Assembly: GCA_030740295.1 (NCBI GenBank) | Contig: JASLXP010000778.1 | Span: 1-13,913, forward strand | Reading direction: 5' to 3' | From: Planctomycetota bacterium | GTDB lineage: Bacteria > Planctomycetota > PUPC01 > JACPCR01 | Length of the DNA: 13,913 nucleotides | Shown here: in pieces, positions 5,141 to 12,745 of the stretch | Numbering within the stretch: position 1 is the first letter of the stretch | Layout: each line of letters opens with the position of its first letter | Program-made: the position numbers and the translations under genes | Notes under the pieces: model-generated | The model's input: the letters and a program-made list of their open reading frames with translations, nothing else | The model's database searches: none | Told to the model about the DNA's origin: nothing

Positions 5141-7462
5141 ATGAAAGCAACACCATCCCTCATCTCTCTGTTGGGGCTTTTCTGCTCTTGCTCAACAATC
5201 TTTGCCGCCCCTTTGCTCATCGACCAGGGAGCGGCGAAGTGCTCAATTGTCATCCGTCCCGCGGCCCCCAAAGCCGAGAATAAACGCGACTTCTCAGACG
5301 AAAGAGCAGCCGCCGAAGACTTTGCCCGCATTGCGAAAAAAATGACGGGTGCAGACGTGAGTATCGGGACCGAGCCACAGGACGGGCTGATACCAATCTA
5401 CATTGGTGAATCAGGTCTCACGGTTGCACCTGATGCGAAGAATAAGCTGAAACACCCCGATCCATTGGCTCTGAAGAATGATCGTTTCCTGATAGAGATC
5501 CGCCGGGATCGGGTCGTGTTGCTCGGAGCACGGGCATGGGGCACCCGGATGGCCGTGACGCAGTTCTTTGAGAATGCCGGATGCCGCTGGTTTGGCGGAG
5601 GCGACTTTTTCGAAGTGATTCCTGAATCAGAAACGCTCGCTCCCAAGACGGTCCGCAAGATTTACACTCCGGACTTCGAGATGCGGGATGTCTGGTATGT
5701 GAAAGACGAAGACCTCGCTCACTTGAAACTTCAGAGGCACGATGTGGTTCTGCATCACGGCCATTCCTGGCAAATCTGGATCGGTAAGGAGCGGAAAGAG
5801 CGGCCAGAACTGAGAGGGCTCGTCCAGGGCGACCGCAAGGGTCCTCTCGAATACGCACATCCCGATGTTCCTGACATCTTCGTTAAGAACATCAATGCGT
5901 TTTTCGATCGAACCGGCAACCGCACTGCCAGTCTCTCAACGGACGACGGCCCGGTTTACTCCGAAAGCAAGGAGAGCAGTGCCTGGTTGCTGAAGGAATA
6001 CGCAAATCCATTCATGGCTACTCCAGCCATCTCTGATGCCGTCCTTCGGCTCTTCAACAAGGTCATTCCGAAAGTACAGGAAAAGCATCCAGGCACGGCC
6101 TTTGGATTCCTGGTCTATGCCAACACGATGACACCACCGCGATATGAGACGGTTCATCCTTCGATTGCCGTTGTGGGCGCGCCTTTGGCCGAGAACGCGA
6201 TGGTACCAACGACGTCGGAGACCGATGACCGGCGAATCCACTTTCGGAAGTGCTTCTCAACATGGATGAAGCTCGCCCGGCGCGGCTACATCTATGAATA
6301 TGACCCATTTGTCATCTGGCACGGGGTGATGTGCCCGAGAGTGGAGCTGATTCGGCGGAATGTTCCTTACTACAAATCCATTGGTGTCCGCGGTATGAAC
6401 ATCGAATCGAGGAAATCGCAGTTCGCAGAATCCGGCCTGAACATTCTGGTCTATTCCCGGCTGTTCTGGGACACAGGCGCAGACGTGGATGACATTCTGG
6501 ACGATTTTGCTTCGACATTTTACGGTCCGGCAAGGAAGGCCATACGGCGTTGGATCAAGGTCACTCAGGAATCCGTTCTGAATCCTTCCGCGCCCATCTT
6601 TGGCAACGAAGACCACAACATTGAGCTGATCTATACGGCAAAAACCATGGCCGCGGCAGAGAAGGCGATTCGAAAGGCAGAATCTGTGGCGAAGGTTGAG
6701 CCCTGGAAGAAACGGGTGCATGTCGTTCGCCTCATACACAACCATACGGAAGCCTACCTTGAATCCAAGAACGCGATGGATCGCTGCCAGTTTGCAGATG
6801 CACTGTCGGCAATCGACCGAATGTATGAAATCAAAGCGAAGCTCGCCGCAATCGACCCCATGCTCACAGACCCTAATCGCTGGGACCTGAAATCAGAAGG
6901 CCCGCCCTGGCTGCGCGGCCTTCGCAAACAGACAGAGCATTGGGCTTCTCTCGCCGGACAAAAGGGGGATGGCTCGGAGGGCACCTTGATTCAGATTCTG
7001 CCGGAAAAGTGGAACTTTGTTTTCGATCCGGACAATCTCGGATTGACCAACAGTTGGGCTCAGAAAGGCGAGCTGGAAAGAGCATCGCCGATCGATATCG
7101 GCCAGCCGTGGGATTACCAGGGCCACCTCAAGCCGAGGATTGCCAACGGCTGGTACCAGACCCGATTCAATGTGCCACTCGCCTTCAAAGGCAAACCCAT
7201 CCGGCTCTACTTCACGCGCATCTATGGCATGAAGATCACTCTCTGGATCGGCGGCAAGCTCGTCGAACATCGCGACCTCCCGCGCTGGTTCTGGTACGAC
7301 TACCATCACGAGCGTGAATTTGATGTGACCAACTTCGTGAAGCCTGGCGAAACGCAGACAATAACGATGCGAGTCTTCAAGGAGTTTGACTGGGGCGGAC
7401 CTTACGGAGGAGCGTTTCTTTATTCGCCCAAAGATGCTGCCAGACAGATTAAAGAGAAATAA
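5141..7462 (+). CDS. Secreted DUF4838 domain protein, glycoside-hydrolase-like
   Basis: A large exported protein of 773 residues, probably acting on carbohydrate outside the cytoplasm; the reaction is unknown. Residues 1-22 are a Sec signal peptide (KATP, hydrophobic stretch, IFA then APLL); no proper lipobox is present. Residues about 25-180 resemble the N-terminal domain of GH67 alpha-glucuronidases, ending with the conserved GCRWFGGGDFFEVIP (147-161). Residues about 190-480 carry the DUF4838 features: STDDGPVYS (266-274), a helix plus VYANTMTPP segment (325-333) and DDFASTFYGPA (454-464). A helical linker is followed at about 615-765 by a jelly-roll module like the sugar-binding domain of GH2 enzymes (NGWYQTRFNVPL, LWIGGK). 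DUF4838 proteins are common in polysaccharide-degrading PVC bacteria and Bacteroidetes. Candidate acidic catalytic residues include Asp268 and Asp269, but this is a guess. The ATG follows CGGGAA at a spacing of about 10. Confidence 0.8.
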   Translation: MKATPSLISLLGLFCSCSTIFAAPLLIDQGAAKCSIVIRPAAPKAENKRDFSDERAAAEDFARIAKKMTGADVSIGTEPQDGLIPIYIGESGLTVAPDAKNKLKHPDPLALKNDRFLIEIRRDRVVLLGARAWGTRMAVTQFFENAGCRWFGGGDFFEVIPESETLAPKTVRKIYTPDFEMRDVWYVKDEDLAHLKLQRHDVVLHHGHSWQIWIGKERKERPELRGLVQGDRKGPLEYAHPDVPDIFVKNINAFFDRTGNRTASLSTDDGPVYSESKESSAWLLKEYANPFMATPAISDAVLRLFNKVIPKVQEKHPGTAFGFLVYANTMTPPRYETVHPSIAVVGAPLAENAMVPTTSETDDRRIHFRKCFSTWMKLARRGYIYEYDPFVIWHGVMCPRVELIRRNVPYYKSIGVRGMNIESRKSQFAESGLNILVYSRLFWDTGADVDDILDDFASTFYGPARKAIRRWIKVTQESVLNPSAPIFGNEDHNIELIYTAKTMAAAEKAIRKAESVAKVEPWKKRVHVVRLIHNHTEAYLESKNAMDRCQFADALSAIDRMYEIKAKLAAIDPMLTDPNRWDLKSEGPPWLRGLRKQTEHWASLAGQKGDGSEGTLIQILPEKWNFVFDPDNLGLTNSWAQKGELERASPIDIGQPWDYQGHLKPRIANGWYQTRFNVPLAFKGKPIRLYFTRIYGMKITLWIGGKLVEHRDLPRWFWYDYHHEREFDVTNFVKPGETQTITMRVFKEFDWGGPYGGAFLYSPKDAARQIKEK

Positions 7463-8792: not shown

Positions 8793-8873
8793 TGGCCTGG
8801 TCCGACACGCACCATGTCGTACATCTCACAATCTGGCTGTTGCTGTCTGTTTCTGAAGCGTGACACCTGTGAA

Positions 8874-9761
8874 TTACGAAAGTGCCGTGGCGTTCGTCAG
8901 AACCCCATCGGCACCGATTTCAAACTCTATGGCACCGGTATCGGGACCGTAGGCGGTGGCTTGGCCATCGGCGGTTACCAGGAAAAGGCCAGTGTCCGAG
9001 ATCTCCATGCGCGCGACCCCGGGAAAATGATTCGTTACGTCGACCTCGCGGCCGGACTGATTGATCAGCACAAAGAAACTCGGGCTGTCCGCAACCTGCG
9101 CGCCCCGGGTGTCTGCGCTACCGAGACCGATCACTGTGATGTTTCCTTTATCGCCTTCACCTGCAGCGATGGATGCAGAGACGTCTCCCTGGCCGCGGGC
9201 GAGAGCTGTGGCGTGTCCGCCGCTCTGCGAGAGAGCCGTCGCGTCCCCGATGTCTTCCGAGACTGCGAGTGCGTTGCCTCCTCCGGGCGCTGAGAGGGCG
9301 TTCGCGTTGCCGAGGCTGTCAGACATGGCCAGGGCTGTGCCCTCTGCGCTTGCTACTGCAGTGGCATTGCCCTCGCTGTTGGCCGCGGCCGCAGCCTGGG
9401 ACAAACTTCCCGCGGCTGCGCTGGCGTTGCCTCCTCCTTCCGATACCGCCAGAGCATTGCCGTTGGCGCTTTCGGGGACGATGGCTACGGCGTTGCCGTT
9501 TCCATTGGCCACGGCGGTCGCATTGCCGGTAGAGCCTTCGTTCGTGGTTGCTGTGGCATCGCCTTCCCCTCGGCCCCGGGCCTGGCTTACACCTTCGCCA
9601 TTTGCATTCTCGATACGATCACCAGCCTCCGGATTCGCGAGGATGATAATCTCTTCGGTTACGATAGCGGCTGGAGCCGGGGCCGAATCGCCGCCTCCCG
9701 CGGCGGCGGTCTGATCGACATTGGCGGTGTTGATGGCTGCTGGTCCGATTCCAACGCTCAT
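8874..9761 (-). CDS. Decapeptide-repeat protein C, predicted beta-solenoid
   Basis: I do not recognise this family. The 295 residues have no signal peptide, no membrane segment and no cysteine. An Ala/Gly-rich N-terminus (1-66) leads into units of consensus G-[ND]-A-x-A-[LVI]-x-x-x-x beginning at residues 67, 79, 89, 101, 111, 121, 131, 141, 151, 162, 172, 182, 192 and 206. Spacing is mostly 10, sometimes 12, once 11 and once 14. From about 228 the same 10-residue register goes on with bulky inward positions (for example REVDVTNHFP, GLFLVTADGQ, GAIEFEIGAD). Alternating small or hydrophobic residues at positions 3 and 5 suggest stacked short beta strands. AGGGAG precedes the ATG by 8 bases. 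The gene begins 13 bp after the stop of paralogue B, so they share a transcript. It could be a surface, matrix or structural protein, but no function is assigned. Confidence 0.8.
   Translation of the reverse strand: MSVGIGPAAINTANVDQTAAAGGGDSAPAPAAIVTEEIIILANPEAGDRIENANGEGVSQARGRGEGDATATTNEGSTGNATAVANGNGNAVAIVPESANGNALAVSEGGGNASAAAGSLSQAAAAANSEGNATAVASAEGTALAMSDSLGNANALSAPGGGNALAVSEDIGDATALSQSGGHATALARGQGDVSASIAAGEGDKGNITVIGLGSADTRGAQVADSPSFFVLINQSGREVDVTNHFPGVARMEISDTGLFLVTADGQATAYGPDTGAIEFEIGADGVLTNATALS
9117..9563 (-). repeat. Decapeptide repeat region of protein C
   Basis: At the protein level this region holds about 14 G-x-A-x-A units. At the DNA level the copies are diverged, but exact words recur: GCGTTGCCTCCTCC (plus strand) is found at 9271-9284 and again at 9424-9437. 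Such copies make slippage or recombination between units possible. Confidence 0.8.
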
Positions 9762-9774
9762 AATTTAATCTCCC

Positions 9775-10486
9775 TTATGTCATGCTCTGGCTGACTGATT
9801 CAGCAAGTGTGCTCAGTTGCCGGGTGATGTGGCCTGCCGGTTCGATGAGGAGGCCCTCAGCTTCCACGGCAGGAATCTGCCGAAGTTTCCCGGTGAAAAA
9901 GATGTGAATTTCTCCCTCTTGTTTGATGTGCACCATGACCGGGACGCTGCAGCGATTGGTCAGCACGATGTCCTGCCGCCCTTCGTGCAGAACTGCCATC
10001 TCGCACTGCCCGTGGTGATGCGTGCGGCAACTTCCGCTTCCGCGGCAATCCAGTGACAGGTCTCCGGTGGCGCTGGCAGATGCGAGGGCATGCCCCTTCC
10101 CCAGGGTCTGGCAGACAACCTGGGCACGTGCGCCGGGCATTACGTGCGCAAGGCAGCGTCCGGATCCCATGGACTGCGCATTGGCATCACCTGCGGCGCC
10201 ATGGCCGACGATGGAATCGACCCGTGCACCATAATTGGAAATGGCGCAGGCTGAGCCCGACGAGCTTTCATCGACGAGGGCATAGCTATGGCCGCGTCCT
10301 TCGCAGATGGCCGTGGCCTGCCCCAGCGAATTCTGCTCTGTGATGGCAATCGCAGAGCCCCTGCCGCAGAGGTGAGCGAAGGCCTCTCCTTCGCCAGAAT
10401 TTTTCTTTATGCTTTTACCTGCTTCCCTTCGCGTTTGAGGTAAACGCCGGGGGGGGGAGCGCCCTTCGCTTCAGGGTGTTTTTCAT
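9775..10486 (-). CDS. Decapeptide-repeat protein B, reading frame broken at a C9 tract
   Basis: A paralogue of A and C, not a recognised family. One frame is open from just after a TGA near 10469 to the TAA at 9775-9777, but it holds no ATG, GTG or TTG before residue M at 10170, which lies in mid-repeat. The likely start, ATG at 10486 (or an in-frame ATG at 10492) with GGA upstream, lies in a different frame that runs into nine C (10449-10457). With eight C the two frames join into a protein of about 236 residues. Units continue in 10/12 register (for example GQATAICEGR, GHALASASAT, GDLSLDCRGS) into a C-terminal part with V-P-V-M-V and G-E-I-H-I units. It has nine cysteines and a His-rich THHHGQC. 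The N-terminus is strongly basic. There is no signal peptide. The gap to A is about 64-70 bp, and to C 13 bp. Confidence 0.7.
9886..10389 (-). repeat. Decapeptide repeat region of protein B
   Basis: Units of 10 or 12 residues run from GEAFAHLCGR through to GEIHIFFTGK without losing register. Cysteines fall at different unit positions, so they are not a fixed ladder. Confidence 0.7.
10449..10457. repeat. Nine-base G homopolymer (C9 on the coding strand)
   Basis: An uninterrupted run of nine G on the plus strand lies within the first codons of gene B. Removing one base restores a continuous frame from ATG 10486 to the stop at 9775. Tracts of this length are prone to slippage in replication and to length errors in sequencing. 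Confidence 0.9.
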
Positions 10487-10555
10487 TTGCATTCCACGGG
10501 CACTTTCCCTGGGCGGAACGCGCTGAATTAACTAGATGTGCAGATTCCCGCCGGT

Positions 10556-11467
10556 TTACCCAACGGGATTCATGAGAAGTAACATTTCACCGTTTGCCAG
10601 GACTTCGACCGAATCTATTCCGGGGGGAATCGAGACCCCACGCGTATTCGAACGTTCATGCAGGACCAGTTCGCCTTCCTCTGTGATGCGGATGACTGCT
10701 TCGTTCGGGTAATGATTTCTTATGAGAATTGGGAAGGCCGCGTTCGAGATGATCTTCAGCTCGCCACTGCCGTAATGGCGTACTTCGATGTCAGCTTTCG
10801 AGAGATTCTCAACGGCAACATCCCCATGGCTGCACGCGCAGGCTCTTGCCTCGCCGGCGCCCCGGTTCCGGACGCTTGCGTTGCCGGCTGCATTGCGGGC
10901 AACCGTGGCGAAGGAGCATCCGGTGTACTGCGATGTTGCGGAGGCGCTGCCGGTGGCACCGGGCTCAACGGTGGCGACCGCGTTTCCATCACAGCCACTC
11001 CATGCTGTCGCGGAGCCGTATGATTCCGGCGCGGCGACGGCCTGGCTTTCGCCGGAGCCTTCGGAAATGGCGGTGGCACATCCAATCGATCCGCTGCCGG
11101 TCTCAGCGATGGCGTCGCCGGTGCCCGTCCCTCCTGCCATTGCTGTGGCCAGGCCATCGTTCCTCTGGATTCGCTTTCCCGGATTTCCGGTCTTTCTGGT
11201 TGCCGTGACCGGCGAATCGGCCATGCCGAATGCCTTTAAAGCTCTGGCCCTCTGGAGTTTCCAAGCGGCCTGAGAGGGAAGCAATGAGGGTGAGACCGAC
11301 GAGTCGCCCAGCATCCAAAGGGCTTCCTGAGGTGAAATGTCTCCCTCACGGCGTAAGCGATTTGTCGGATAACCTCTCACTAAATCCTCGTGGTAGACAG
11401 GTTTAGGGGTACGAAGGACAGGCGCAACGGATTTTGGAAAGAATCCGCCCCCGTGGATTTGCTGCAT
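10556..11467 (-). CDS. Decapeptide-repeat protein A, predicted beta-solenoid
   Basis: First of three paralogues; the family is not recognised. The 303 residues have no signal peptide. Residues 1-100 are a non-repeated, rather basic N-terminal region unlike that of B or C. Units of consensus G-x-A-x-A start at 105, 117, 129, 141, 151, 161, 173, 183, 195, 205 and 215, with every spacing exactly 10 or 12. The register then continues at 225, 235, 245, 255, 265, 275, 285 and 295, with Val, Ile and Leu taking the Ala positions (FPILIRNHYP, GELVLHERSN). There are five cysteines, including a CAC at 210-212. The shared pattern hydrophobic-x-hydrophobic, Asn, then E-G-E-hydrophobic in the C-terminal part links A to B. 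The ATG at 11467 lacks a clear binding site. The cyclase gene ends 91 bp upstream on the same strand. Confidence 0.78.
   Translation of the reverse strand: MQQIHGGGFFPKSVAPVLRTPKPVYHEDLVRGYPTNRLRREGDISPQEALWMLGDSSVSPSLLPSQAAWKLQRARALKAFGMADSPVTATRKTGNPGKRIQRNDGLATAMAGGTGTGDAIAETGSGSIGCATAISEGSGESQAVAAPESYGSATAWSGCDGNAVATVEPGATGSASATSQYTGCSFATVARNAAGNASVRNRGAGEARACACSHGDVAVENLSKADIEVRHYGSGELKIISNAAFPILIRNHYPNEAVIRITEEGELVLHERSNTRGVSIPPGIDSVEVLANGEMLLLMNPVG
10736..11155 (-). repeat. Decapeptide repeat region of protein A
   Basis: Fourteen consecutive units of 10 or 12 residues. The Ala-core units come first and the V/I/L-core units last. Confidence 0.78.
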
Positions 11468-11558
11468 CCGGGATCTTTGTCTGAAGTAGAATCGTGAACT
11501 TCAGAAAAACTTTAGAGATTTGTGTGAGGTTCTGGCGGTGAAACGCAGATGCGTCTCT

Positions 11559-12497
11559 CTAAGGAGCCGCATTCTCCATCAGCGGCAGCGTGACAATGCG
11601 GTCACGTCCCTCTCTTTTCGCCTCATAGAGGGCAGTGTCCGCCACCCGGATCAGGTCTTCCTCAGAAAGGACCATAGGTGTTTCCATGGCCGTCAATCCG
11701 ATACTGACGCTCAGGTTCAACTGCATGTGCAGATCAGGCACGTCGACAGGTGTTTCAGAGAGGGAACTGCGGATGCGCTCGGTGACGATGCTGGCGTTTT
11801 CCATTTTACAGCCCGGCATTACGATCAGGAACTCCTCACCCCCATAACGGCCAATGCCGTCATAAATGCGCACAGAGCTGGTCATCCGCGTGGCCACTTC
11901 GCGCAGGACGGCGTCGCCAACAAGGTGCCCGTGACGATCGTTTATCTGTTTGAAGTAGTCGAGGTCGGCCATGGCTATGCCAAGGGGAGTCGCCTCTCGT
12001 TTGGCTCGCGCAAGCTCACGAGTAAGGAGGTCAAGTATGTCTTCCCGGCTGAGCAGATGAGTCAGCGAATCATGAGCGATCTGAAACTCCACGGCCTTGT
12101 GAGCGGTAATAAGCTCTGCCTGCAAATCAAAGATACGCTTTGCGGCTCTGAGACGGACGACCAGTTCACGATGTTCGAGGGGTTTGATGAGGTAATCGTC
12201 CGCGCCCACTTCCACGCTGTCCCAGACGCTTGGCATATTCTGCTCGTTCGCCAGGAGAATGGTGTAAACGTATGGGCGGTCATCGATGCCTCGGATTTTT
12301 TCGCACAGCCTTACAATGCTTTCGCCGGGCAGATTGAAATCGATGATCGCCATATCCGGCCCGTTGTTTTGACGGAGGAGGAAATGGGCCTCCTCTGTGG
12401 TCTCCGCTGTTTCCACATCCCGGTACCCCATCTGCGCCAGCGTCTGCACCACCATATCCCGTGCGAGAGCGTCTTTTTCGGCCACTAGAACTTTCAA
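11559..12497 (-). CDS. REC-GGDEF response regulator, diguanylate cyclase
   Basis: Makes cyclic di-GMP from two GTP. I place the start at TTG 12497 because AGGAG at 12504-12508 lies 6 bases upstream, giving 312 residues that begin KVLVAEKD; a TTG at 12518 would only add seven residues upstream of that site. Residues 1-118 are a receiver domain with phospho-acceptor Asp53 and Lys105. The usual acidic pair reads Glu7-Lys8, and the switch Thr position reads Leu82, so phosphorylation signalling may be altered. A short helical linker (about 120-140) leads to GGDEF (about 142-305). The active site is GGEEF (219-223), with DLDYFKQIND (178-187) and the inhibitory I-site RIYD (210-213), so a product-regulated active enzyme is expected. 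The gene ends 91 bp before repeat gene A on the same strand, and is divergent from the CBS gene. Confidence 0.92.
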   Translation of the reverse strand: MKVLVAEKDALARDMVVQTLAQMGYRDVETAETTEEAHFLLRQNNGPDMAIIDFNLPGESIVRLCEKIRGIDDRPYVYTILLANEQNMPSVWDSVEVGADDYLIKPLEHRELVVRLRAAKRIFDLQAELITAHKAVEFQIAHDSLTHLLSREDILDLLTRELARAKREATPLGIAMADLDYFKQINDRHGHLVGDAVLREVATRMTSSVRIYDGIGRYGGEEFLIVMPGCKMENASIVTERIRSSLSETPVDVPDLHMQLNLSVSIGLTAMETPMVLSEEDLIRVADTALYEAKREGRDRIVTLPLMENAAP

Positions 12498-12503
12498 GAT
12501 TTT

Positions 12504-12508
12504 CTCCT
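12504..12508 (-). promoter_or_regulatory. Ribosome binding site fixing the cyclase TTG start
   Basis: AGGAG on the minus strand, 6 bases before TTG 12497. It rules out the longer reading from TTG 12518, where this motif would lie inside the coding region. Confidence 0.75.
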
Positions 12509-12745
12509 GCCAGGACAAATCGAGCCGCCATTAAAACATGACCCAAGATCCCAGACCAACATCGAAGGGCCGCTCCTGTCACGCATTCTGTTTACTACAG
12601 AACTGGCGAAAGTCAGGACGGAAAAATCAGGGAATCCCGCTATTGCCTGAGGCCCGCTGTTGCATATCTAAACCTTGCCAAGCAGGTCTGTAGCCGGGTT
12701 CGCCAGAATTCGGGGCACAGAGCTCTGGAAATTCGTCACTGTAAC

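Follow-up and report, generated by a model that had tools for sequence, protein, structure and literature searches.

Among described proteins, those closest in architecture to the genes reported here are the curlin (CsgA) repeats, which are about 22 residues long and contribute two strands each to a stacked solenoid, and the YadA head, a beta-roll in which small Ala/Gly residues form two-strand coils of about 14 residues. Here, we describe three tandem reading frames, A, B, and C, which lie on the minus strand of contig JASLXP010000778.1 from a Planctomycetota bacterium (assembly GCA_030740295.1); the whole stretch of 13,913 nucleotides is referred to as the window. With moderate confidence, we interpret them as an unnamed paralogous family of probable beta-solenoids, in which A and C are maintained and B appears to be broken, and whose products would most likely be leaderless rods or scaffolds.

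Besides these frames, the family comprises genes of a Caspian metagenome-assembled genome, casp150-mb.279 (G001, 9 Mb, Planctomycetota), such as L018 (another A-like gene, 295 amino acids) and L019 (a 793-residue member), as well as protein search matches including P0003 and P0005. Their predicted coils of approximately 22 residues and two strands resemble the curlin repeats, but Pfam rows up to E ≤ 1 included no curlin match for A, C, B, L018, L019, P0003, or P0005, hydropathy shows no clear signal for the general secretory (Sec) pathway, and an Ala core differs from the curlin consensus. Small Ala/Gly two-strand coils are shared with the YadA head, whereas the coil length of about 20-22 residues, the lack of a Pfam row, and the absence of any visible anchor domain set the family apart. 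The solved beta-helices of SufB-SufC-SufD (5awg), EtpA (8cpk), 3jx8, and RTX block V (9p6c/9p0c) appeared as middling fold rows for the repeats, but with 6-15% identity in those rows and no common sequence family. A silk-like (GAGAGAGQ)10 polypeptide is reported to form stacking beta-rolls (PMC5388506); its alternating Gly/Ala strands stack as those of the window family may do, and no common ancestry is implied.

Two forms of the repeat unit were recognized, G-x-A-x-A-x5 (10 residues) and G-x-A-x-A-x-T-G-x-G-S-x (12 residues), and for each of six proteins, none of 1000 shuffles contained as many G-x-small-x-small-x-small motifs as the real sequence. When autocorrelation was compared with 300 composition shuffles, the peak fell at lag 22 in L019 (z 13.2), B (z 7.4), and C (z 6.2), and at lag 10 in A (z 7.1, with z 5.0 at lag 22) and P0003 (z 6.9, with z 4.5 at lag 22), while L018 reached z 4.0 at lag 10 and merely z 1.8 at lag 22. 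The period of 22 reflects 10- and 12-residue units that take turns in B, in C, and over much of L019. A, P0003, and L018 show this alternation solely at their beginning, and most units further along have 10 residues. The 10/12-residue repeat claimed in an earlier note on this DNA therefore stands for the G-x-A-x-A units and, as a regular alternation, for B and C, whereas A mixes unit lengths. Charged residues are rare at unit positions 3 (3/155), 5 (2/108), and 7 (1/100) compared to positions 2 (29/101), 4 (12/101), and 6 (15/101), and substitutions follow the same division, with 37/288 at positions 1/3/5/7 versus 91/216 at positions 2/4/6. At the level of sequence, the proteins display a small core alternating with outward residues and regularly spaced strands, as is characteristic of a solenoid.

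AlphaFold2 models both A and C as beta-solenoids. In the A model, the predicted local distance difference test score (pLDDT) by blocks is 70-90 for residues 61-200; in the C model, the spacing between strand starts alternates between 10 and 12 residues from residue 109 onward, with pLDDT of 76-90 over residues 121-200. A solenoid fold is thus predicted, and A and C are probable beta-solenoids. In each protein, a variable N-terminal tail would lead into stacked coils of approximately 20-22 residues, each made of two short strands (G-x-A-x-A-x-A/S/T) and short turns and giving a flat two-sheet solenoid with an Ala/Ser/Gly core, which the common beta region would continue or cap. The number of coils, from about 5 to about 17, would be a variable property of the family.

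The common origin of the three frames is indicated by their C-terminal regions, which were compared with the repeats largely removed and scored against 500 shuffles. Similarity was found for C and B (z 7.3, 0/500 shuffles reaching the score), A and C (z 4.5, 1/500), and P0003 and C (z 6.0), and the A-type members L018 and P0003 gave z 9.1 and 9.0, respectively, against B; weaker links were seen for L018 with C (z 2.9), L019 with C (z 2.3), and L019 with B (z 2.1). Because of these links, with A and B bridged by L018 and P0003, we regard A, B, and C as one family in which A is tied to B through intermediates, and the shared C-terminal pattern that the earlier note had cited, alongside the repeat units, for paralogy is upheld in the same sense.

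The ratio of nonsynonymous to synonymous substitution rates (dN/dS), computed between the window and G001, is 0.08 for A (tail 0.134, repeats 0.064, C-terminal region 0.061) and 0.20 for C over 240 aligned codons (first part 0.09, repeats 0.15, C-terminal region 0.36), compared to 0.108 and 0.103 for the neighboring GGDEF and CBS genes. Because of the values for A and C, both genes are considered to be under purifying selection, maintained, and, by that measure, functional.

B, a third paralogue with a 22-residue period and an open frame at 9775-10470, seems to be in a different state. Its sole in-frame ATG is at 10170, and its nearest upstream ATG (10492-10490) is in another frame, across a tract of nine cytosines (C9, 10449-10457); in the relative, B's C-terminal part directly follows the start region, most repeats are missing, and the ATG is out of frame. 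Since an in-frame start is missing and the relative's copy lacks most repeats, B looks like a recently broken copy that has lost its start. P0008, a 131-residue protein from another source (7 member sequences, 10 contigs), has the length expected from the ATG at 10170 with one residue different; at the level of this protein listing, it fits a common lack of an in-frame B start. The C9 tract is a candidate slippage site, and slippage, phase variation, or a sequencing error are possible alternatives to decay. B's C-terminal part has a dN/dS of 0.32 over 88 codons between the window and G001, no higher than the value for the same region of C.

The three related frames in tandem on one strand were correctly recognized in the earlier note. 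The gaps are 13 bp between A and B and 63 bp between C and B's nearest upstream ATG; B, however, does not look intact, and the start of C had to be revised. A mechanical listing of open reading frames (ORFs) begins C at ATG 11467 (303 residues). However, GAGGATTTAGTG, which ends in the GTG at 11380, is conserved in the Caspian relative, and the alignment of the stretch before it has single-base gaps that break the frame of C; for these reasons the GTG at 11380 is most likely the true start, giving a gene at 10556-11380 and a protein of 274 residues with a partly helical N-terminal part, 22-residue repeats, and then the C-terminal beta region. Gene A (8874-9761, 295 residues, 84% identical to its ortholog L001) encodes a low-confidence tail (residues 1-55), 13 G-x-small-x-small anchors, and its own C-terminal beta region. 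Several antisense ORFs of 119-217 residues lie opposite the repeat genes on the plus strand (8814-11273) and are probably a by-product of repeat composition.

Several results weigh against this interpretation. AlphaFold2 has been reported to be biased toward beta-solenoids for repeat sequences (PMC11795689), neither model has a PDB match at E ≤ 0.001 in Foldseek, and block pLDDT amounts to just 58-78 for the C-terminal region of A and 46-76 for that of C. Direct C-terminal similarity between A and B is absent (z -0.4, 323/500 shuffles reaching the score). The dN/dS of B's C-terminal part is not above that of C and its frame is open there in the relative, so the selection data themselves do not show decay of B. 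A link of the repeat genes to cyclic dimeric GMP (c-di-GMP) would be one of proximity. Yet charged residues are scarce at alternate, core positions and substitutions fall mainly at the others, which fits a solenoid despite the bias. The beta-solenoid proposed earlier is accordingly supported as a prediction: the models agree on a fold for A and C, subject to the bias and to the low C-terminal scores.

The family was not recognized by database models, as the earlier note had anticipated. Pfam and NCBIfam gave no model at cut-off for the repeat proteins (the Pfam search covering the seven sequences listed above, with rows inspected to E ≤ 1, although few matches with E above about 0.1 pass the HMMER filters and very short repeats can be lost), PHROGs gave weak rows only, PADLOC gave none for the four repeat proteins supplied, and a viral fold library had no row at E ≤ 0.001. 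Nor was there a row for YadA head, RTX, or pentapeptide repeats at E ≤ 1 in Pfam or NCBIfam, in agreement with what had been judged from motifs. The best weak Pfam match, DUF6764 (PF20550), lies over the repeats of A (20 bits), L018 (21 bits), and P0003 (23.7 bits) with a cut-off of 27; no such match appears for C, B, or L019. Of 14 control genomes, 2 likewise gave sub-threshold matches to this model, and the match may reflect composition. NCBIfam ser_rich_anae_1 (19.3 and 15.7 bits versus a cut-off of 650), phrog_18371 (L018, E 4e-05), and phrog_19041 and phrog_21061 (B, E 0.032 and 0.045) were taken as composition, and PDB sequence matches to eL29, UvrA, and blr5658 (best E 0.004) as composition or chance; the PDB sequence search with L019 returned none. 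Pfam rows below cut-off for MU117 (131-residue B), SpaA_3 (B frame), Anamorsin_N (P0005), and an AAA lid (L019) were also set aside. A literature search listed nothing on this repeat family.

To date, relatives with a known taxon are uncultivated Planctomycetota, and the family is apparently lineage-restricted. Protein searches returned three matches for A (one a near-identical fragment), three for C, and four for a mixed alignment, among which only P0008 was new; P0001 and P0008 are labeled Planctomycetota and the others carry no taxon. Because two of these searches were limited to the 7993 and 7999 candidates with the most words in common, more distant members could have escaped them. Among GTDB genome contigs, one locus was found, in G001, which holds five family loci including the B remnant: C lies beside the CBS and GGDEF genes near a contig end, followed by the shortened B, A is on a separate contig, and L018 and L019 are further members. 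Among genomes around G001, positives numbered 1/2 in the family (query L018), 1/2 in the order (alignment A4), and 1/9 in the class (query L019), and 1/392 among sampled genomes of the phylum (alignment A5), where at most seven candidates per genome were scored in the 21 genome rows listed; in each case the one was G001 itself. Viral contigs gave 94 pattern matches to the C alignment and 0 relatives. Since B looks broken in the window and the relative has lost most of it, and lone A-like and giant members occur elsewhere in G001, the 'three-part set' suggested earlier finds no support.

In the window, the minus-strand order is REC-GGDEF (11559-12518), C, B, and A, and the CBS-GGDEF-C order is kept in the relative. 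The REC-GGDEF protein, which has GGEEF with RxxD five residues before, is presumably a diguanylate cyclase, to judge from these kept motifs; in PADLOC it gave one weak row, PD-T4-6 (E 0.0053). Between this gene and C is a leader of 178 bp (11381-11558), in which 132/176 aligned bases (75%) are identical to the relative, whose leader is longer (221 bases, the extra stretch being left out of the count). Identity at fourfold sites is 78/132 (59%) for GGDEF, 77/127 (61%) for C, and 77/167 (46%) for A. Since the leader is more conserved than these sites, the C-B-A unit is probably under its own control, and the leader may hold its regulatory signals. Candidate elements include TCTAAAGTTTTTCTGAA (11516-11500), common to both leaders, and an inverted repeat found by eye (11428-11447, minus strand) with a 6-bp stem whose pairing is kept in the relative with one G-U. 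Rfam had no match in the window and none at E ≤ 1 in 11300-11620; sigma-70 promoters numbered 0 versus 0.9 expected, and terminators 5 versus 3.5 expected, with the sole minus-strand site inside A.

In the reading we prefer, A and C would be rigid rods without a leader peptide, or scaffold elements that stack on themselves. The unit encoding them has a conserved leader of its own and lies beside a gene for a two-component-type diguanylate cyclase; the rod or scaffold role, with any self-assembly, is what we infer. The strongest alternative, which we hold as a tentative possibility, is a cytoplasmic filament or scaffold similar to bactofilin or the MinC beta-helix, with solenoids stacking end to end in the cell. 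By hydropathy, neither a membrane helix nor a Sec leader at the N-terminus is clearly visible in A, C, L018, L019, and P0003, although A has a hydrophobic patch at residues 31-42; the 793-residue member adjoins a PP2C-domain protein, and MinC is among the weak fold matches of C. Those matches are not significant, however, Pfam has no bactofilin or MinC row at E ≤ 1, and acidic long-tailed proteins also occur outside cells. The PP2C protein (L019:10983-12824, 613 residues, domain by Pfam) has an N-terminal half that is kinase-like by eye, with no Pfam kinase match.

An extracellular matrix or surface fiber of the functional-amyloid type (curli- or FapC-like), in which leaderless export and solenoid stacking would be switched by the diguanylate cyclase, seems unlikely. 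The coil length matches that of curlin repeats, the REC-GGDEF gene is directly upstream with synteny kept, FapC is the top Foldseek row for C, albeit not significant (E 0.098, TM-score 0.09), and A, L018, and L019 are acidic and free of Cys (isoelectric points of A, L018, L019, and P0003 are 4.05-4.45, with A at 4.05). Against this, C (isoelectric point 5.86) has five Cys and B nine, the five proteins with hydropathy profiles lack a clear Sec signal, no curlin row was found, and no exporter gene was recognized when the ORF lists flanking the loci were read by eye rather than profile-scanned as a whole. Equally speculative is a version in which lineage-specific Ala-core two-sheet solenoids of 20-22-residue coils, encoded at a locus linked to c-di-GMP, self-stack into Planctomycetota filaments of tunable length, any export taking place without a Sec leader.

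It is rather improbable that these are low-complexity, largely disordered Gly/Ala/Ser proteins without a common fold, the solenoid being an AlphaFold2 artifact. The A/G/S-rich composition, the lack of significant fold matches, and the reported bias (PMC11795689) speak for it, but charge and substitutions alternate strongly by position, the repeats of A have a dN/dS of 0.064, and divergent paralogues have kept the 10/12 phasing. Least probable is a solenoid that binds ice or carbohydrates, its binding surface being a flat face formed by outward polar residues: position 4 is Thr or Ser in 31/101 units, ice-binding proteins are among the insignificant fold rows for C, and DUF4838 glycosidase-like genes adjoin two of the relative's members and are second from A in the window, but outward residues form no regular ladders of one residue, the orientation of the DUF4838 genes is inconsistent, and the 30 DUF4838 match rows in the 9 Mb of G001 make some adjacency possible by chance. 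The DUF4838 genes (window 5141-7462; L018:9802-12846 and L019:5575-8277, directly adjoining the repeat genes) are a weak lead, and two of the neighboring proteins have a leader-like start in hydropathy.

Considering its very small-residue core and 10/12 phasing, the family provides a clean case for distinguishing a natural solenoid from an AlphaFold2 artifact, and it is a possible modular rod for design. With its members of about 274 to 793 residues, it is also an apparently unnamed addition to the repeat proteins of the Planctomycetota, a phylum in which little is understood of the cell surface and cytoskeleton.
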